A program made the translations under genes and the position numbers. From an archaeon (GTDB lineage: Archaea; Thermoproteota; Nitrososphaeria; Nitrososphaerales; Gagatemarchaeaceae), in NCBI GenBank assembly GCA_016432545.1, contig CP066694.1, positions 1,371,206-1,435,205 on the forward strand: a DNA stretch of 64,000 nucleotides. Reading direction: 5' to 3'. Below the pieces are notes generated by a model. That model was not told the DNA's origin, did not search any database, and saw nothing but the letters and a program-made list of their open reading frames with translations. Shown here in pieces: positions 46,675 to 55,985 of the stretch. Numbering within the stretch: position 1 is the stretch's first letter; the number at the start of each line of letters is the position of its first letter.

Positions 46675-47424
46675 GTGCGCCCCAGTACTCAGGCCGCGGT
46701 GCTCTGCGGGGGGCGGGGCGAGAGACTGAGGCCCCTGACCGACTACTTCCAGAAGGTGATGATCCCGATAGGCCCGAAGAAGCTCCCCCTCCTGACCTAC
46801 ATCATCCGCCTGATCTCGCACCACGGAATCGACCGCGTGGCCCTGCTGACGGGCTATCGCTCGCATGACATCCGGGACTACTTCGGCGGCGGCTCCCAGT
46901 ACAAGGTCCGCCTGACCTATTCAGAAGACCGCAAAGGCGAGAAGGGCAGCCTGAACGCTCTTGCCAACGCGCTCAAGGGAGGCGCGATAACCGGATGCGA
47001 CGAGCTCCTTGTCTACTACGGGGACGTCCTCACTGACCTCGACATCGGCGCCCTCCTCAAGACTCACAGGACGAAAGCCGCGGACGCGACACTGGTGCTC
47101 GCAAGGGGGTACAGCCTCCCCGTCGGGACCGCCGACGTCGGCAAGGGAGGCGTCGTCTCCGCAGTCAGGGAGAAGCCGAAGCTAGACCTCAGCGTGACGA
47201 TGGGCTCGATGGTACTGGGCCGCAAGGCGATGACGATCGCGAGGAAAGTTGCAGGGAATGACAGGACGGACCTGATGACCCACTTCATGCCCGCACTGCT
47301 CGAAAGGGACTGCAAGGTCGCGGCCTACTACACTAAGCGGGAGTGGTACGATGTCGGAACCGTATCAAATTTCGAGAAACTCAACGCCGAACTCGGGCGC
47401 CACCCTCTGAGCTACTTGGTCTGA
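46675..47424 (+). CDS. NDP-sugar pyrophosphorylase-like nucleotidyltransferase
   Basis: The 249-residue protein starts at GTG 46675 with the signature AAVLCGGRGERLRPLTDYFQK, followed by LLVYYGDVLTDLD near 105, with the metal Asp pair. It is the catalytic domain of the glucose-1-phosphate thymidylyl/mannose-1-phosphate guanylyltransferase family without a C-terminal beta-helix. It makes nucleotide sugars for glycosylation or exopolysaccharide. Confidence 0.88.
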   Translation: MRPSTQAAVLCGGRGERLRPLTDYFQKVMIPIGPKKLPLLTYIIRLISHHGIDRVALLTGYRSHDIRDYFGGGSQYKVRLTYSEDRKGEKGSLNALANALKGGAITGCDELLVYYGDVLTDLDIGALLKTHRTKAADATLVLARGYSLPVGTADVGKGGVVSAVREKPKLDLSVTMGSMVLGRKAMTIARKVAGNDRTDLMTHFMPALLERDCKVAAYYTKREWYDVGTVSNFEKLNAELGRHPLSYLV

Positions 47425-47777
47425 CCAGCGACCCTTTCCTCGATATCCCTCTCCTTCGCACGGGCTCCACCAATCTCCTTCCTCATCCTCGACGAGAACC
47501 TGTAGTCGCGAAGCCCCACGTAAAGCCAGAGGAGCGCCAGCACGAGAACGAAGACCTCCGTGACCCGCAGGACCGGGTTGGTCAGGTCTACCAACACCGC
47601 CGTGGTCCCTTCTATCGGAGCCAGCAGCTGCGAACTGTAGGCAAGGGCGAGGAGTATCGACACCGCGATGGTCAGCGCGGAGAGGGTCCGCATCCTGTTC
47701 GCCCCACTTTCGATGTGGGCGACGAGCTCCTGGTGGGCCTCGAGTATGGCTGCTTCTCTGACCTTCTCCGCTTCCAT
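47412..47777 (-). CDS. Two-helix membrane protein, unknown
   Basis: The 121-residue protein has a helical N-terminus, a helix at about 30-52, another at 68-90, and a charged helical C-terminus SSRMRKEIGGARAKERDIEERV. It is on the same strand as and just downstream of a winged-helix gene, so the two may form a membrane-sensor pair. The 3' end overlaps the sugar nucleotidyltransferase by 13 bases. Confidence 0.6.
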   Translation of the reverse strand: MEAEKVREAAILEAHQELVAHIESGANRMRTLSALTIAVSILLALAYSSQLLAPIEGTTAVLVDLTNPVLRVTEVFVLVLALLWLYVGLRDYRFSSRMRKEIGGARAKERDIEERVAGQTK

Positions 47778-47826: not shown

Positions 47827-48081
47827 TTACAGCGGCAGCCGACGCCAGACCTCCAGCCAGGCGCCGTAAACCTTGTACCCTTCTTCTGTTATGGACAGGA
47901 CCTCCTGTCCCTCGACTAGTCGGGACCTGATGAGGCCCCTCTCTAGCAGGGGCTTCGTGAAAGTCGCGAGCCTCCCGTAGTTGAGGTTGCACGCCTGAGC
48001 CAGCCTCGTCGGTCCGCGTTCCCCCTCGTGCAGGGTCGCGAGCAGTTCCATGTAGATCAGAATCGGCTCGCGCCTCCTCAT
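47827..48081 (-). CDS. Small winged-helix protein
   Basis: The 84-residue protein is a single winged helix: IYMELLATLHEGERGPTRLAQACNL-type start, then RLATFTKPLLERGLI and wing SRLVEGQEVLSITEEGYKV. It fits archaeal winged-helix regulators of the DUF4364/PadR-like small class. Its partner may be the membrane protein 49 bases downstream. Confidence 0.75.
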   Translation of the reverse strand: MRRREPILIYMELLATLHEGERGPTRLAQACNLNYGRLATFTKPLLERGLIRSRLVEGQEVLSITEEGYKVYGAWLEVWRRLPL

Positions 48082-48136: not shown

Positions 48137-48355
48137 CTAGGTGCCGGACATCGGAGGGGTCCATCCCCACCTCGGTCCCCTCATCCGCCCCTTGCCCGAA
48201 AGCAGCGCGACCCCGACGACTATCAGGACGATTCCGATCAGGAGCGCGATGGCCTCCAAGACGAAGATGATGATGCTGATCAGGACGCTCACCAGGAGTA
48301 TGATGATCGCAGCTCCGACCACCACCATCGCCGCCCCCAGGATCCGCCCTTTCAT
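48137..48355 (-). CDS. Small two-helix membrane protein
   Basis: The 72-residue protein has two near-continuous hydrophobic helices (about 5-30 and 35-52) and a basic tail GKGRMRGPRWGW. It stands alone, with TATA-like AAATATCAAAC upstream of ATG 48355. No family is recognised. Confidence 0.55.
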   Translation of the reverse strand: MKGRILGAAMVVVGAAIIILLVSVLISIIIFVLEAIALLIGIVLIVVGVALLSGKGRMRGPRWGWTPPMSGT

Positions 48356-48454: not shown

Positions 48455-49390
48455 ATGCTCTCCATCAAGAACTGCGGGATAATGCTCGAGCCGCAGATGG
48501 GCATGACGATGCTGGAAGTCGTCTCGACAGCGAGGCTCGTCGAGAGGCTGGGCTTCGGCTACCTTTTCAGGTCCGACCACCTTCTACCCACTGACAACCG
48601 CAGAGGGGTCGACTCCCCTGAATGCTGGACGAGCCTGGGGGCCCTCGCGGCCTCGACGACCGACCTTCGCTTCGGCCCGATGGTGACTCCCATTGGCTTC
48701 AGGAACCCCGCCCTGCTTGCGAGAATGGCATGCACCCTCCACTCCTTCTCCGGCGGGAGGCTCCAACTCGCGGTCGGGGCCGGCTGGTACGAATCTGAGT
48801 ACAGGGCGCACGGCTACCCGTTCCCGCCGTTCAAGGAGAGGATGAGCCAGTTCGACGAGGCCTTTTCGGTCATATCCTCGCTTGTGCGCGAAGGGAGGGC
48901 CGACTTCGACGGTTCCTATTTCTCAGCCCACACCGACTGCCTCCCGCGGCCAGACGGCAAGGTGAACGTCATCATCGGGGGCAGGTCCAAACCCCTTGCA
49001 GCCATGGCGGCCCGGAGGGCGGACGAGTGGAACGTGTTCCTATCTCCCCCTGAGACATATTCGCTGCTCAAGGCGACCTTCGACTCGGCCCTCGACGGCA
49101 GAAGTGTCGTAGTGTCCGAAACTGGTCCGTTCATGTTGGGAAGGGACCCTGGTCAGCTCGAGTCGTTCGCGAGGATGCAGGCATCCTGGCTGAAGTCCGA
49201 GGCATCCCCTCAGGAGACCCTCAGCCGGCTGAAAGCAAGGGATGCCCCGGTCGGAAGCCCTGAGGAATTCCTGGAAAAGGTCGGGAGGAAGGTCGACGCG
49301 GGAATCGAGCGGTTCTACTTCCAACTGCTCGCGCCGGAGAACACCGCCATGCTCGAACTGCTCGCGGAGACTCTCAAGGGAGGCGTCTAG
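48455..49390 (+). CDS. LLM-class F420-dependent oxidoreductase-like protein
   Basis: The 311-residue TIM-barrel protein is luciferase-like: ARLVERLGFGYLFRSDHLL near 28, RFGPMVTPIGFRNPALLARM near 75, GRLQLAVGAGWYESEY near 100 and VIIGGRSKPLAAMAARRADEW near 170. These are typical of LLM-class F420-dependent enzymes. The substrate is unknown. It is followed 69 bases later by the arginase-family gene. Confidence 0.88.
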   Translation: MLSIKNCGIMLEPQMGMTMLEVVSTARLVERLGFGYLFRSDHLLPTDNRRGVDSPECWTSLGALAASTTDLRFGPMVTPIGFRNPALLARMACTLHSFSGGRLQLAVGAGWYESEYRAHGYPFPPFKERMSQFDEAFSVISSLVREGRADFDGSYFSAHTDCLPRPDGKVNVIIGGRSKPLAAMAARRADEWNVFLSPPETYSLLKATFDSALDGRSVVVSETGPFMLGRDPGQLESFARMQASWLKSEASPQETLSRLKARDAPVGSPEEFLEKVGRKVDAGIERFYFQLLAPENTAMLELLAETLKGGV

Positions 49391-49459
49391 GGAGTGGGGG
49401 AGCGGAAGAGGCCGCCCGCCAAAGCCAGGTACATCGGGAGGAGACCCTCCGACCGCGGC

Positions 49460-50356
49460 ATGAAGATTGGAGTCATAGGGGCGCCTGTCGACCTCGGGCA
49501 GGAGAGGAGAGGAGTGGACATGGGCCCCAGCGTAATCCGCATCGCAAGGCTCCAAGAGCGCCTCGAGGACCTCGGGCACAAGGTGGAGGACTTTGGCAAC
49601 ATCCCTGCGGCAGACATGTCGATCGCGAGGCTGGGGGACAAGAAGGCGAGGTACCTGGACGACGTCGTCAGGGAGTGCAAGCTCATCGCCGTCAAGGTGG
49701 CCGAAAGCCTCAGGCAGGGATACTTCCCGCTCGTCCTGGGGGGCGACCAGAGCACCTCCATCGGGACCGCTGCGGGGCTCGCTTCCCAGGGGACGAAGAG
49801 GGGGGTGATCTGGCTCGACGCCCACGGCGACTTCAACACTCCTGCCACGACCCCCAGCGGGAACATACACGGGATGGCACTCGCGGCCGTCCTCGGATAC
49901 GGGCACCCGAAGCTCGCCAGGCTGGGAGGCGTCTTCCCCAAGGCTCTCGAAGCGAACACCGTACTCATCGGTGGCCGCAGCTTCGACCCCGAAGAGGCGA
50001 AGGCGATCTCCGCGTCCAAGATGACAGTCTTCACGATGCGCGAGATCGACGAGCTGGGGATGAAGCGAGTGATCGAGGAGGCGATCAAGGTCGCGGGGAG
50101 AGGTGTAGACCAGGTGCACGTCAGCTTCGACGTCGACGCCATCGATCCACGAGAGGCACCAGGGACCGGAACGCCGGTGCGGGGTGGCCTGACCTACAGA
50201 GAGGCTCACCTCGCGATGGAGATGCTCTACGACTGGGGGAAGGTCACTTCAGCCGAGTTCGTGGAGGTCAATCCGGTCCTCGACACGTCGAACCACACCG
50301 CAGAGGTCGCCGTAGAGCTGATCCTCTCACTATTCGGAAAGAAGATCATAGCGTAG
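49460..50356 (+). CDS. rocF: Arginase-family ureohydrolase with substituted metal ligand
   Basis: The 298-residue protein starts MKIGVIGAPVDLGQERRGVD at ATG 49460; GTG 49394 would add 22 unsupported residues. Ureohydrolase motifs DAHGDFNT near 122 and SFDVDAIDP near 222 give four metal acidic/His ligands. The first motif, usually GGDHS, is GGDQS, with Gln97 in place of a conserved Mn-ligand His. The arginase branch is favoured by overall layout. Activity is therefore in doubt: it may use one metal or a different amidino substrate. Confidence 0.78.
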   Translation: MKIGVIGAPVDLGQERRGVDMGPSVIRIARLQERLEDLGHKVEDFGNIPAADMSIARLGDKKARYLDDVVRECKLIAVKVAESLRQGYFPLVLGGDQSTSIGTAAGLASQGTKRGVIWLDAHGDFNTPATTPSGNIHGMALAAVLGYGHPKLARLGGVFPKALEANTVLIGGRSFDPEEAKAISASKMTVFTMREIDELGMKRVIEEAIKVAGRGVDQVHVSFDVDAIDPREAPGTGTPVRGGLTYREAHLAMEMLYDWGKVTSAEFVEVNPVLDTSNHTAEVAVELILSLFGKKIIA

Positions 50357-50423
50357 CGGACTGACCCCAGGTCCGGACCGAAGGTGCGCAACCGCCTTAA
50401 TTCCTCGCTCCTCCCTCTGCGGC

Positions 50424-51635
50424 ATGTCATCTCCTCCGGGCCTCTGGCTCGGCCACTCCCCTTCAGGTGGCCGCGCCGGCCTAGAGTGTCCTCCGGGCAC
50501 TAGGCTCGCCCTCCTCGGCCCTCGCTCCGGAGACATGGCCGGGCTCCTCGCCATGGCGGCCAAGGAGGCCGGGAAGGAAGTAGTCGTTCTCGACCTCGGA
50601 GGCTCCCTCGCCAACACGATGTCGGGGTATTTCGACACCTACGACTACCGGACCTTCCTCTACGACTCCGTGCGCCTGGCCGAGCCCGGCCCTTGGCACG
50701 CCCAGCTCATAGCCGCAGCGTACGCAGCGGCACTGGACCTCTCAGTCGAGGAGGAGGCGATAATAGAATCGACTCTTCAAGCGGTCGCTTCGCAGGGCGA
50801 CCTGGCAAGTCCGGTCTCCATCTACGACATCATGGGCAAGGTAGAGGGGTTCAGGGGCTTTTATGTCGACAAGCTCAAGGGGCGCATAGGGTCCCTTCGC
50901 CTCTTCGATGCCGTTGACGACAGGGTCATCGGAAGCCTCCTGCACTCCTCGGCCCTCATTGACTTTCAGAGGGCCCCCTACCCGCTCGCCGCAGAGCTGG
51001 GCGCTGCCCTCTTCCTCGCGAAGCTCCTCGCTGTTTCCAGGGAGGAAGGCGGACGTGGCCTCCTGATCCTGGTCACCGAGGCCCATCGGCTCTTCCGAGC
51101 CAATCCTCGCCCCTCCGTCAGGCAGAGGCTCATGCTGGAGCTCCTCTCAAGCGGCGTAGGCCTAGCTGTATCGAGCGAACTCCCCCTAACGCTTGACAGG
51201 CAGCTCTTGGACGCTTGCTACATTCGCGTACACTCGAGCGAGTCCTGGCACTCGAAGTCGGCGACCGCTACTGTCCTCGTGGGCTCAGTCGTCATCGAAG
51301 ACCTCAGGTCTAGGAAGGCGAGCGTCTTCTATCCGAGGCGCCTGGTCACCAAGACTTCCGAGTACGTGTCAGGCCGGGCCTCGAGGAGCGCGGACACCGG
51401 ACTCACCCAGACGGTGTTGGAAGAGGTGGGCAGGTACCCCCTCTCCACCAGGGACTCTGTCGTACAGTTCCTTGCGCCCGAGTTCCTGCCCGCGGACGTA
51501 GGTTCCGAAATCGACCGCCTCGAGGCCCGCGGATGCCTGCTCCTTGAGCCCAAGGAGTCGGGCTCTGGCCCGAAGGTCTTTGCCTTCACCCTGACGGAGA
51601 AGGGGAATGGACTCCTAGAGGAGCTGAGGAAATAA
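50424..51635 (+). CDS. Degenerate HerA/FtsK-like protein
   Basis: The 403-residue protein has RecA-type HerA layout: a beta strand then GPRSGDMA (32-39), lacking the Walker A GK[ST]; LLILVTEAHRLFR near 213-225, where HerA has VDEA[QH], so the Walker B Asp is Thr217; and a tail fold GVGLAVSSELPLTLDRQLLDACYIRVH. A C-terminal winged helix (about 350-400) follows. It probably does not hydrolyse ATP. It is the first of three one-base-overlapping genes; TTAATT lies upstream at leaderless spacing. Confidence 0.68.
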   Translation: MSSPPGLWLGHSPSGGRAGLECPPGTRLALLGPRSGDMAGLLAMAAKEAGKEVVVLDLGGSLANTMSGYFDTYDYRTFLYDSVRLAEPGPWHAQLIAAAYAAALDLSVEEEAIIESTLQAVASQGDLASPVSIYDIMGKVEGFRGFYVDKLKGRIGSLRLFDAVDDRVIGSLLHSSALIDFQRAPYPLAAELGAALFLAKLLAVSREEGGRGLLILVTEAHRLFRANPRPSVRQRLMLELLSSGVGLAVSSELPLTLDRQLLDACYIRVHSSESWHSKSATATVLVGSVVIEDLRSRKASVFYPRRLVTKTSEYVSGRASRSADTGLTQTVLEEVGRYPLSTRDSVVQFLAPEFLPADVGSEIDRLEARGCLLLEPKESGSGPKVFAFTLTEKGNGLLEELRK

Positions 51636-52636
51636 TGGAGAAGATTCCCACTCTCTGCAAGGCTGTCGACGACCTCCTCGAGGGAGGCCTGCCGACCGGG
51701 ACCATCACCCAAGTCTTCGGAGAGAAGGCTTTGGGCAAGAGCATCTTTTCCTACCAGGTCGCTTGCTCCACTGTCGGCTCGGGCCGCAGCGCGGTCATCC
51801 TCGACACCGAGAAGTCATACTTGAGCTACCTCCTGCCATATCGCAAGGAGGGAATGGCCAAGCGCTTCGGGAAGGAGCTGGGAACCTTCGACCTGAAGCT
51901 GGAGAGAGTCGCGAAGCAGACTGGGAAGAGAAAAGGCGCTTCGAGAGGCGAGCTGATCACCGCAGTCTCATCCGCCCTCGACCGCATGGGCATCGCCTAT
52001 TCCGACTCCCACCTCGGCTCCATAGCCGACATCCTGTCGCCATCCTTCGCGGTCGATGTCCCCAATCAAGGCCCGGCTGTCTTCCTCCTCCAGACACCTG
52101 AGGTTGTAGACCTGCTGAACCTGCACGGCGTCGACGCGGTCAAGGAGGTGTCACCGGGCGGCAGGGTCGAGCTCAGGCTGAGGCAGACCCCAACGTACGA
52201 GTCGGTCCTGCACTCCCTCATCCAGCAGACGGGGGCCAAGCTGCTGGTCTACGACTCGATCTCCGCTCCCTTCAAGTCCTCCTTCCCCAGCACGCAGGAC
52301 CTTCCAGCGAGGAGCGCGGGCATGGCCATGCTCCTCTCGCACGCCCAGCGTCTCTGCGTCGAGTTTGACATTGCCGTCCTCGTGGTAAGCCACGTCTCCA
52401 TAGACCCGATCAAGGCATGGAACAGGAGGCCCTACGGCGGGGTAATACTGGGGCACGAAGCGAAGTTCTCTCTCGAGCTCACGAAGAGCGGGGCGAAGAG
52501 GAACGGGGAGGCTGAGTCGGAGAACGAGGACGAAAAGACCGAGCACGGTCGTGCCTTCTGGGTGGCCCGCCACCCTGCGATGCAGGAGTACTCGAAGTTC
52601 GGCTATGCGAACATAGACGAGGAAGGGTTTCACTGA
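51635..52636 (+). CDS. RecA/RadB-like ATPase with internal insert
   Basis: The 333-residue protein has a RadA/RadB-like core: GGLPTGTITQVFGEKALGKS with Walker A GEKALGKS (29-36), a strand AVILDTEKSY, and a Walker B-type strand KLLVYDSISAPF near 208-219, followed by VLVVSHVSIDP. About 100 residues inserted between these (roughly 80-185) are not found in RadB. It lacks the RadA HhH N-terminus. The ATG at 51635 overlaps the preceding stop by one base. Confidence 0.75.
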   Translation: MEKIPTLCKAVDDLLEGGLPTGTITQVFGEKALGKSIFSYQVACSTVGSGRSAVILDTEKSYLSYLLPYRKEGMAKRFGKELGTFDLKLERVAKQTGKRKGASRGELITAVSSALDRMGIAYSDSHLGSIADILSPSFAVDVPNQGPAVFLLQTPEVVDLLNLHGVDAVKEVSPGGRVELRLRQTPTYESVLHSLIQQTGAKLLVYDSISAPFKSSFPSTQDLPARSAGMAMLLSHAQRLCVEFDIAVLVVSHVSIDPIKAWNRRPYGGVILGHEAKFSLELTKSGAKRNGEAESENEDEKTEHGRAFWVARHPAMQEYSKFGYANIDEEGFH

Positions 52637-53637
52637 TGGGGTGGGGGAAGAGGGCCCTTCTCCTTGTCCTGGGGCTAGCGTCCTTCGGGTTCGGCCTCTG
52701 GCCCGTCGGCGCGATTTGCTTCCTTCTTGGGTTCCTGCCGGCGGTCAATCGGGGGAGCAACCCGACAGGTCGTGGACGAGCGGTCGTCCCTTTGTCGAGA
52801 GGGACGCTAGGAATCGCATTCGGTCTCCTTGGTCTCGCGTCGCTCGCCTCCGGAGGGGCCTTCTCGGTCCTGGTCTTCTTCTCCCTTGCCGCTCTTTTGC
52901 TCCTGGGGCCTCTCCTCGGCCTCGGACGGGGGCTTTGGAACTACGCCGAGGTTCCAGGGTCCATCCTGTGCCGGTCCGCCTGGTGCCCCTTGCTCTGGTG
53001 CGCGCTCGCCGAGCTCAAGCCCGCCACCGACCCTCTCGCAAGGTCTCTCTCGAGCTTTCGAGGAGTGATGATCTTCCTCCCTGGGCGCTCCTTCGCGGTC
53101 GCGAGGGTGCCCGCGCTCGGTCGGAGGTCCGCCGAACAGAAGGCCCTCGCTTCCTTGAGGAACACCGCGGCGTCGCTCAGGGGAAGGGCCTTCCTCCTCC
53201 CTCTTGACTCGGGGCAGTTGAAGAATGACTTCTCGCGGCCCCTCGAGAGGTTGGTCGGCGCGAAGTCGCCTCTGGCCCAACGCGGGGACATGATCGTCTT
53301 GGACGCTGAGCGGGGCCTCATCGTAAAGACGGGAGAGTTCGGAGCCACCGACCGGGAGGTCCGCGGCTTGGTGATCCCAACCGCGCAATCAAAGAGCGCC
53401 GCGGGCCACCTGACCTGGGAGGTCCTGGAAGTACTGGCCAAGAGGGGGATGTTGGCAGGCCCTGACGAGGCGTCCGGGTTCCTGGAGTCGTTCAGTGCGG
53501 CCAAGGGCGAGCCCTTCGGAGAGCGCCTGGGCTCGCTTTCTGTGAAAGGCCCGTCGCTCCGCCTCGAGAGCCTCGGAGGGGCGAAGGTGGAGCTCAGCCG
53601 TCCACAGGCGAGGGCCCTTGCGGCAATCTACGGTTAG
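52636..53637 (+). CDS. Membrane protein, last gene of the cassette
   Basis: The 333-residue protein has four membrane helices in its first 110 residues (LLLVLGLASFGFGLWPVG; AICFLLGFLPAV; GIAFGLLGLASLASGG; VLVFFSLAALLLLGPLLG) and a cytoplasmic C-terminal domain of about 200 residues with no recognised fold. ATG 52636 overlaps the stop of the RecA-like gene by one base. It may tether the preceding two proteins to the membrane. Confidence 0.65.
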   Translation: MGWGKRALLLVLGLASFGFGLWPVGAICFLLGFLPAVNRGSNPTGRGRAVVPLSRGTLGIAFGLLGLASLASGGAFSVLVFFSLAALLLLGPLLGLGRGLWNYAEVPGSILCRSAWCPLLWCALAELKPATDPLARSLSSFRGVMIFLPGRSFAVARVPALGRRSAEQKALASLRNTAASLRGRAFLLPLDSGQLKNDFSRPLERLVGAKSPLAQRGDMIVLDAERGLIVKTGEFGATDREVRGLVIPTAQSKSAAGHLTWEVLEVLAKRGMLAGPDEASGFLESFSAAKGEPFGERLGSLSVKGPSLRLESLGGAKVELSRPQARALAAIYG

Positions 53638-53638
53638 G

Positions 53639-54207
53639 TCAGTCCAGTCTCAGTTTCTCGGCCCACTCGGCGAGCGCCACCATGAGCTTTGCCAGCTGCT
53701 TCCTCATCGTCTCGTCCGTGAGCTTCATGTCCTTGTCGAACGCCTGAGACGCCCTCGAGACATAGACCTGGGGTTGATTGACCGGGTGCATGTTGAGGTC
53801 GACCATGATGTGCCTCAGATGAAGCTGGCCTCTTGCTCCGCCCCTCGGCCCTGACGAGGCGCTGACCATGGCCGCCGGCTTCCCTTCCCACGAGTTGTCC
53901 CCGTCGGGCCTGTTCCCCCACTCGATCGCGTTCTTGAGAAGGGCCGGACCGAGTAGTTGAACTCCGGGGTAGCGAAGAGGACCGCGTCCGAGTCGCGGAT
54001 CTTCTGCTTGAATGCCACGACGTTCTCGGGCATGTCCTTCTCCAGGTCGGAATTGTAGATCGGGAATCCGGTGATGTCGAGCACTTCCAGCGACACTCCC
54101 TCCGGCAGGAACTCCTTCGCTGCGGCCAGTAGGGCGGTGTTGTAGGACCCTTTCCTCGAGCTCCCAGACATCCCGACGACCTTGATGGTCCGCCCCTGCA
54201 CCGACAA
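53639..54207 (-). pseudogene. NADPH-dependent FMN reductase, frameshifted
   Basis: The first 86 or so codons from ATG 54207 read as a flavodoxin-like FMN reductase (VVGMSGSSRKGSYNTALL; FATPEFNYSV). The frame then breaks near 53945-53951. From there another frame continues with the expected LLKNAIEWGNRPDGDNSW, GKPAAMVSASSG and a helical C-terminus ending at 53639. One base missing in TCGGTCCGG accounts for it. Either a recent pseudogene or a sequencing or assembly indel in a GC-rich run. Confidence 0.8.
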
Positions 54208-54233
54208 CTTCTCGCCGCGACGAGGGCCTGCTT

Positions 54234-55985
54234 ATGAAACAATCTGAGCCTGCTTTGAACCCCGATAGGTGTAAATACGGAGAATCGTGCGCCGGCCAGA
54301 AGTTGAACAGCACTGGGTCTAACGCACCCCAATTCTCCCGAAGGTCCCTGATACTCATCGTGGCAGGCCTGCTGACCGGGCTCCTGCTCGGCGCCCTCGA
54401 CCAGACGATCGTGGCGACTGCCGCGCCGAGGATAATCGTGGACCTGAACGGGCTCACCCTGTATGCGTGGGTCTTCAGCGCCTATATCCTCACCCAGACG
54501 GTCTCGATGCCCATCTTCGGGAAGCTCTCGGACCTCTACGGCCGCAGGAAGTTCCTGATGCTTGGTCTTCTGATCTTCATGGGAGGGTCCGCGCTCTCGG
54601 GAGCCGCCCAGGACATCAACCAGCTGATCATCTTCAGGGCTATACAGGGAATCGGGAGCGGGGCCTTCTTCCCAATCGCGATCGCCGTGGCGGGCGCCGT
54701 CTTCCCCCCGGCGCAGAGGGGCCGGATTCAGGGAGTCTTCGCCAGCGTCTTCGGAATGTCGGCCGTCCTCGGGCCTACGGCCGGGTCTTACATCGTGCAG
54801 ACCCTCAGCTGGAGATGGATCTTCTACGTCAACCTGCCCCTCGGCGTGCTCTCGATCGCATTCCTTGCCCTTGCCCTCAAGGAGTCAAGGGACTCGACCG
54901 CCAAGCCGGTGGTCGACTGGCTGGGGGTCACCAGCCTGACGGCGTGGATTACCTTCTTCATGCTGGGATTCCTGAGCGGCGGAACCAGCTTCGGGTGGTA
55001 CTCGTGGCAAGAAGTCGCGCTCTTCGGGTCGGCGATATTCTTCTTCGCGCTCTTCATGATAGTCGAGCGGAGGGCGCTGGAGCCCATCGTACCCCTGGGC
55101 CTCTTCAAGATCCGTACCATCTCGGCGGCTACCTCCGTCGCATTCCTGACGGGGGTCTCGATGTACGCCGTCATCAGCTACGTCCCTCTCTTCGTCCAGG
55201 CCGGCCTAGGAGGCACGATCGACGACGGGCGCAACGTCCTCTACGCGTTCATGATCCCCCTCGTCATAGGCGCCGTCTTCGCAGGACAGCTGAGCACGCG
55301 CTCCGCGGGATACCGACAGGTACTCTCGGTGGGCCTCGTGGTCCTCTGCGCGGGACTCTTCCTCCTCACTTCGATCAACTCCTCATCGAGCTTCACTCAG
55401 GTGATGGAGGACGGGGCAGTGATGGGACTGGGCCTCGGCACGACCTTTCCGGTCGTAATACTCGCTGTGCAGTACTCCGTCCCCCGCAGGCAGATCGGGA
55501 TAGCCTCCTCGCTGGCCCAGTTCACGAGGAACCTCGGGGGCACCATCGGCCTCTCCATCCTCGGGGCCCTCCAGGCCAACGCCTTCGGGGCGCGGCTTAC
55601 GACAGTCATCCAGCAGATACCTTCCCAGTACCAACACCAGGCCGCCGCCTTCTTCGGCGACCCAAACGCGGTGGGAAGGGTCCTGGCTTCGTCCACAGAG
55701 CTCCAAAAGGCGGAGACCGCCTTCCCGCAGGTGCCCTGGGCGACCATAGTCCCTGAGCTGAGGTCCGCCTTCGCCCTCTCGGTCACCCCGATCTTCTGGG
55801 TGAGCCTCGGCTTCGCGGTGGTCGCGGTCGTCGCAGGGGTCCTGGTGAAAGGGTCGTTCAGAGAGCAGGTCGCAGCGCGGGACGCAATAATGGCCGGCGA
55901 AGCAAGGCCAGAGATGAAGCCGCCTCCAATCCCGATAACCGAGCAGTCACCCGGGGCCCAGAAACAGGCCCAACGGCCCACTTGA
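54234..55985 (+). CDS. MFS multidrug exporter, DHA2 (14-helix) type
   Basis: The 583-residue protein has 14 predicted helices, with signature ALDQTIVATAAPRI in helix 1, LSDLYGRRKFLM in the first cytoplasmic loop and GPTAGSYIVQTLSWRWIFYVNLPLG near 180 (motif C region of DHA2 drug:H+ antiporters). The C-terminal tail is Pro-rich. It is divergent from the frameshifted FMN reductase gene. Drug substrates cannot be deduced. Confidence 0.9.
   Translation: MKQSEPALNPDRCKYGESCAGQKLNSTGSNAPQFSRRSLILIVAGLLTGLLLGALDQTIVATAAPRIIVDLNGLTLYAWVFSAYILTQTVSMPIFGKLSDLYGRRKFLMLGLLIFMGGSALSGAAQDINQLIIFRAIQGIGSGAFFPIAIAVAGAVFPPAQRGRIQGVFASVFGMSAVLGPTAGSYIVQTLSWRWIFYVNLPLGVLSIAFLALALKESRDSTAKPVVDWLGVTSLTAWITFFMLGFLSGGTSFGWYSWQEVALFGSAIFFFALFMIVERRALEPIVPLGLFKIRTISAATSVAFLTGVSMYAVISYVPLFVQAGLGGTIDDGRNVLYAFMIPLVIGAVFAGQLSTRSAGYRQVLSVGLVVLCAGLFLLTSINSSSSFTQVMEDGAVMGLGLGTTFPVVILAVQYSVPRRQIGIASSLAQFTRNLGGTIGLSILGALQANAFGARLTTVIQQIPSQYQHQAAAFFGDPNAVGRVLASSTELQKAETAFPQVPWATIVPELRSAFALSVTPIFWVSLGFAVVAVVAGVLVKGSFREQVAARDAIMAGEARPEMKPPPIPITEQSPGAQKQAQRPT

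Follow-up and report, generated by a model that had tools for sequence, protein, structure and literature searches.

Three adjacent genes in the genome of a soil thaumarchaeon of the Gagatemarchaeaceae, assembled as a single contig of 1,504,237 bases (~1.5 Mb), raise the question of whether a degenerate HerA-type protein, a RadA-superfamily ATPase and a membrane protein form one machine, and what such a machine would act on. The genes, designated A, B and C (Table 1), lie in a 64,000-nucleotide stretch of that contig, referred to here as the window. A preliminary description of the window had noted that three plus-strand genes overlap by exactly one base each; the ORF coordinates and the letters at the junctions, TAATG between A and B and TGATG between B and C, agree with this. 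Upstream of A, the block GTGCGCAACCGCCTTAATT matches a conserved GTGCGTCAGYGCCTTAAG block of relatives in an alignment of the spacers and is a putative promoter of A. Downstream of the trio, an NADPH-dependent FMN reductase gene (window 53639-54457, minus strand) seems to be split over two frames (53815-54207 and the 53639-54457 frame) by what seems to be a frameshift or sequence error; the corresponding ORF at locus L093 is about 200 aa long.

Table 1. Coordinates of the trio, of its neighbouring features and of related ATPase genes in other loci (positions without a locus prefix are those of the window).
Feature	Position	Strand	Description
Gene A	50424..51635	+	403 aa; pseudo-HerA/VirB4-fold protein
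Gene B	51635..52636	+	333 aa; RadA/RadB/Rad51-superfamily ATPase
Gene C	52636..53637	+	333 aa; membrane protein with cytoplasmic alpha/beta domain
Promoter-like block 5' of A	50385..50405	+	GTGCGCAACCGCCTTAATT; ~20 bases before ATG
Gene W	47827..48081	-	84 aa; HTH_45 winged helix
Gene T2	47412..47777	-	121 aa; small two-TM protein
Genes between W and A	48137-48355; 48455-50356	-; +	Small hydrophobic protein, luciferase-like monooxygenase, arginase-family gene; arrangement unlike most relatives
~900-aa protein	L175:4731-7433	-	C-type four-TM N-terminus and VirB4/HerA-type ATPase; some Gagatemarchaeaceae
~900-aa protein	L176:3038-5725	-	As above
~900-aa protein	L181:2533-5322	-	As above
Intact HerA-like ATPase	L179:3219-4952	-	
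Intact HerA-like ATPase	L180:3979-5775	+	

Direct sequence searches with the product of gene A gave no match above threshold in Pfam, NCBIfam or the PDB, so that comparison of folds was needed. The AlphaFold model (pLDDT 88) has 105 PDB matches at E ≤ 0.001 with HerA first, and its best Foldseek matches are HerA (4d2i, E 1.4e-9), VirB4 (4ag5, E 6.6e-8) and TrwB (1e9s, E 1.1e-7), all of which are translocating ring ATPases. These matches are decisive for a HerA/VirB4/TrwB-type fold in the predicted structure, and the HerA/FtsK layout first proposed from the letters alone is upheld by them. HerA and A align in the same order from the P-loop strand to Walker B, and a profile comparison to an intact HerA-like ATPase runs colinearly along 215 columns at a modest score (prob 61, E 8e-5). 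In the HMM alignment, the P-loop strand and helix are kept, whereas the loop is shorter, the GKS/T is gone and Walker B is degraded. In the P-loop region of A, LLGPRSGDMAG stands in place of the ILGMTGSGKST of an intact HerA-like family member, and at Walker B LILVTEAHRLF stands in place of the LTLVEEAHRLL of intact proteins; the second acidic residue is kept in the window, and the region reads VTGAHRLF in many relatives. No GxxxxGK[ST] Walker A motif is present in A of the window, in any aligned member of the family or in the A-like gene of other orders. Alignment with intact HerA-like proteins thus confirms the reported loss of the Walker A lysine and the Walker B aspartate. A C-terminal winged helix, recognised earlier, is located at about residues 325-402; both the model and weak TcaR/PadR profile matches support it. 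In sequence, A matches CedD weakly (E 0.003; 16 bits against a curated cut-off of 600). Pairs with measurable divergence give dN/dS values of 0.03-0.48 in A, B and C, as expected of purifying selection. These low values argue that A is not decaying, and the protein shows itself in its sequence to be a pseudo-ATPase kept under selection, an example of such within the FtsK-HerA superfamily.

Gene B encodes a protein with a Pfam Rad51 domain (63.6 bits against a gathering score of 22, E 2.1e-17), which places it in the RadA superfamily, and it scores well below the NCBIfam equivalog cut-offs for RadA (73.8 bits, cut-off 259) and RadB (63.9 bits, cut-off 172.4). The host genome encodes both a RadA and a RadB-like protein elsewhere, B being the third member of the superfamily, and the possibility that B is the organism's own RadA or RadB was rejected. 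The Walker A sequence GEKALGKS is present as reported; its lysine K35, the catalytic E59 and the Walker B D207 are invariant across 19 divergent B members, as are R77, E179, K214, R226, H253, G268-G269 and R312. By their motifs, only B among the three proteins keeps a complete ATPase site, and it is predicted to hydrolyse ATP, in keeping with the earlier suggestion of a single ATPase: the motifs of A are lost and C is a membrane protein. Between the Walker A lysine and the Walker B aspartate lie 172 residues in B, compared to 89 in the host RadA and 83 in the RadB-like protein. The insert of some 100 residues described previously is therefore real, but this spacing brings its size nearer to 85 residues, situated between E59 and D207. 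The GRG signature of RadA loop L1 is not kept, while the loop lengths match by eye. Weak matches to ArlH are also found (E 1e-4 to 3e-10); B is closer to RadA/RadB than to ArlH/KaiC.

The model of C (pLDDT 85) consists of four TM helices (residues 3-18, 22-38, 53-72 and 75-90) and a cytoplasmic alpha/beta domain. The four helices of the preliminary description are reproduced by this model, on which the count rests, a simple hydropathy scan giving fewer than four separate peaks. Neither profile nor fold comparison of C with the PDB yields a match at E ≤ 0.001, consistent with a cytoplasmic domain that had been called unique; the best fold match, chain A of the ESX-3 translocon (6umm_A, E 2.7e-3, TM 0.26), is below significance. 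The first 100 residues of C are homologous to the N-terminus of ~900-aa VirB4/HerA-type ATPases of the same family (prob 97.9, E 5e-13). Because the TM domain of C is fused to a HerA/VirB4-type ATPase in these relatives, A and C are linked, and no other sequence evidence speaks as strongly for C belonging with a HerA-type partner. The cytoplasmic domain of C has no match in the N-domain of the ~900-aa protein (prob 0.4), and an equivalence of C with the whole N-terminal half of VirB4 was dropped, as the TM domain alone is shared. One further copy of the ~900-aa protein, at locus L177, has 395 aa and looks like an internal deletion that removed the ATPase core. The intact HerA-like protein of L179 reaches 180 bits with the CedD model, against a cut-off of 600, a hint that Gagatemarchaeaceae may have a Ced-like system.

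The order of the three genes is conserved. Among loci retrieved from named genomes with gene B as the query, A adjoins B in all 35, C is present in all 33 of these whose contig extends to it, and the one-base overlaps recur in most family loci; adjacency of this kind is far beyond chance. Had the trio been missing from related genomes the preliminary description would have failed, and the gene-neighbourhood search found it throughout the family instead. In a comparison of 61 genomes, B occurs in 30, A in 32 and C in 28, all within Gagatemarchaeaceae, and none of the three was found in the 24 genomes of other families of the order. The named carriers of B are Thaumarchaeota/Nitrososphaerales MAGs and include SubAcS15-57, SubAcS15-15 and palsa_1368, which belong to Gagatemarchaeaceae (group I.1c) (PMC10640624). 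The trio is near-universal in the family and usually single copy; the family genomes without it are mostly incomplete, and one that is 96% complete (G003) appears to have truly lost it. A single MAG (G023; loci L099, L100 and L146) holds three to four copies, one with stop codons, and is probably mixed given its 6% contamination. Of the three, B is under the strongest selective constraint and is the best conserved, with 53-82% identity within the family, and A (24-60%) and C (28-41%) diverge fast.

Profile searches also recover B, at 145 bits or more, in four families of other orders of the class (f18, f19, f20 and f24), with no B found in family f10, whose many small complete genomes suggest that it is made up of ammonia oxidisers. 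In f18 and f20, B is immediately flanked by a match to the A profile on its 5' side and by a gene for a TM protein on its 3' side. The third gene of f24 matches C (hhalign prob 79, E 1.6e-5), and the f18 protein matches C weakly (E 0.003), with a C-terminal motif that looks common by eye. In f19, B is preceded by a 388-419 aa protein that has a full-length profile match to A (370 columns, prob 96, E 2.9e-9) and no P-loop. B is followed there by a ~120-aa protein containing several TM segments, then by a soluble one, an arrangement reminiscent of a split C. The soluble protein has no detectable sequence relation to the cytoplasmic domain of C, leaving its identification as a split-off C domain unsupported. 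The order of A, B and a membrane gene is kept across orders in different chromosomal settings while the flanking genes vary, and in f18 and f19 the surrounding housekeeping genes offer no clue to function. In phylum samples of 398 and 210 genomes, the only full-length match is the window itself, the others being partial at 54-58 bits and clearly separated in score from true members. Genomes of the carrying families seem to be rare or missing in these samples, which therefore inform on outside classes, not on frequency inside. The trio as first described is therefore a real conserved unit, but an incomplete one, since two more genes accompany it in the family and other orders carry it as well.

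The two additional genes are W and T2. T2 is found near the trio in 21 of 21 neighbourhoods by neighbour clustering and adjoins W in all examined family loci reaching that far; a targeted search places W beside T2 in all 20 relatives' neighbourhoods and in 34 of the 35 of the named set, the exception being a short contig. In most family loci W is divergent from A at a distance of 75-203 bases, whereas the window and its nearest relatives have other genes separating the two. At locus L138 (7375-7635, plus strand) W is inverted with respect to other family loci and has the same direction as A. The W-A spacers of one group carry ACAAsTTGT palindromes every 13 bp, and those of another carry 9-10-bp inverted repeats of different sequence, this second type having the form ACCTAAGAT-N4-ATCTTAGGT and similar. 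Such lineage-specific operator-like palindromes occur in the spacers of L119, L121, L129, L136, L139, L140 and L144, and inverted repeats exceed those of shuffled sequences (p ≤ 0.005) in 9 of 22 W-A spacers; the window lacks a palindromic operator-like repeat. W is probably a local regulator, and in Gagatemarchaeaceae W, perhaps with T2, probably controls both transcription units by means of the palindromes between them.

Tentatively, and with slightly less belief than doubt, we favour a reading in which A, B and C form one membrane-tethered complex with B as its sole ATP-driven subunit, most likely handling DNA at the membrane. Gene order, folds and fusion give good inferential support to the physical complex and to B as its engine, and action on DNA appears likely. 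C would anchor the complex through its four membrane helices; A, no longer binding ATP, would be a structural adaptor that docks on the membrane domain of C and presents its winged helix; and B, a paralogue of RadA that keeps its ATPase site and has a lineage-specific insert, would be the engine assembling on A and C. The complex may receive, tether or move DNA at the cytoplasmic face of the membrane, possibly passing incoming DNA to recombination. Against this reading stand the loss of the GRG signature in B, the fast divergence of A and C, the f19 soluble protein with no detectable relation to C, the uninformative f18 and f19 neighbours and, in the window, the missing palindromic operator and the genes inserted between W and A. 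Nor did the neighbourhood of the trio yield any recognised gene for a nuclease, a relaxase, a pilin, NurA or a channel.

The lack of any recognised DNA-processing gene nearby would suit a membrane ATPase machine that works on protein, comparable to ArlH of the archaellum or EccC/EccE of ESX secretion, B then powering the assembly or the export of some component of the surface or envelope. ArlH and other RecA-superfamily ATPases do act in protein machines, and both the matches of B to ArlH and the best fold match of C, weak as they are, point in this direction; however, the greater proximity of B to RadA/RadB, the winged helix on A, and the failure to recognise a pilin, secreted substrate or prepilin peptidase nearby make a protein substrate unlikely. 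More doubtful still is a complex that tethers the chromosome, or the replication or segregation apparatus, to the membrane, B loading on DNA in an ATP-dependent manner while A and C serve as anchor. A core-like distribution in the family, usually in single copy and under strong constraint, is what a tether would predict, as is the union of a winged helix, a RadA-like ATPase and a membrane anchor, but no segregation gene was recognised nearby, and the absence of the trio from ammonia-oxidising families and its apparent loss in the near-complete G003 imply that it is not essential to chromosome upkeep in the class. That the genes are co-transcribed and functionally separate, with B mediating recombination in the manner of RadB, A regulating through DNA binding and C being a membrane protein unrelated to them, is highly improbable: one-base overlaps indicate probable cotranscription and not binding, yet the gene order persists across orders while the flanks change, and proteins exist in which a HerA-type ATPase carries the membrane domain of C. 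A mobile-element or defence cassette, which the frequency of HerA-fold and RecA-fold proteins in defence and conjugation systems and the interruption of the unit by other genes in the window's clade might suggest, is scarcely credible and was rejected on distribution and family scans, as the trio is near-universal in the family and not patchy, no relatives were found in viral contigs, none of the five proteins (A, B, C, W and T2) has a PADLOC match, and PHROGs gave none save a generic recombinase for B.

Returning to the favoured membrane complex handling DNA, a bolder form of it, which is speculative and rather unlikely as a whole, would be an undescribed membrane DNA machine in which a paralogue of the RadA-family recombinase drives a HerA/VirB4-type ring component that no longer has an ATPase of its own, coupling DNA passage at the membrane directly to recombination; it would have been present early in Nitrososphaeria and be missing from the ammonia oxidisers. 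Most of what is known of DNA import and membrane-DNA coupling in archaea comes from the Ced and Ted systems of Crenarchaeota. A machine for either purpose that joined a dead HerA fold, a membrane anchor and a live RadA paralogue would be of a new design, and would account for the third RadA-like protein in these genomes. The trio also constitutes a defined gene set for testing in a class dominated by uncultured archaea.

Among known systems, the HerA-NurA translocase offers the closest fold to A, the core being the same as in Sulfolobus HerA, but A lacks the P-loop and Walker B residues, carries a winged helix, and has a RadA paralogue and a membrane protein for partners in place of NurA, Mre11 or Rad50. 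None of nurA, mre11 and rad50 was recognised among the recurring neighbours of the 21 family loci and the far loci, part of these neighbours having been scanned against family models. ESX/T7SS translocons pair membrane proteins with an FtsK/HerA-type ATPase; C resembles the ESX-3 chain at a sub-threshold level, and other ESX components were not seen. B shares with RadA, RadB and Rad51 the core, Walker A, catalytic glutamate, Walker B and the GG motif after loop L2, but is without the N-terminal HhH domain, in addition to its insert, altered L1 and low equivalog scores, and the trio fails the tested defining features of HerA, RadA and RadB at the level of sequence. A also resembles VirB4 in structure and, weakly in sequence, the Ced import ATPases CedB/CedD through CedD. 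In CedD the TM domain, N-domain and HerA-type ATPase are joined in one protein (PMC11868833), whereas here the TM domain and the HerA-fold domain are divided between C and A. Ced also comprises a linked CedA channel with the small CedA1/A2 proteins and active CedB/CedD; T2, a small two-TM protein, may or may not correspond to CedA1/A2. In further contrast to Ced, no CedA-type channel or pilin was recognised nearby, the HerA-fold protein is predicted from its motifs to be inactive, and the RadA paralogue would supply the ATPase. No curated family names A or C, and no account of the combination turned up in searches of open-access papers, in line with the earlier remark that no described system of this form was known; within that literature, what is new is apparently the combination of these genes as a system, built on folds of A and B that are already known.
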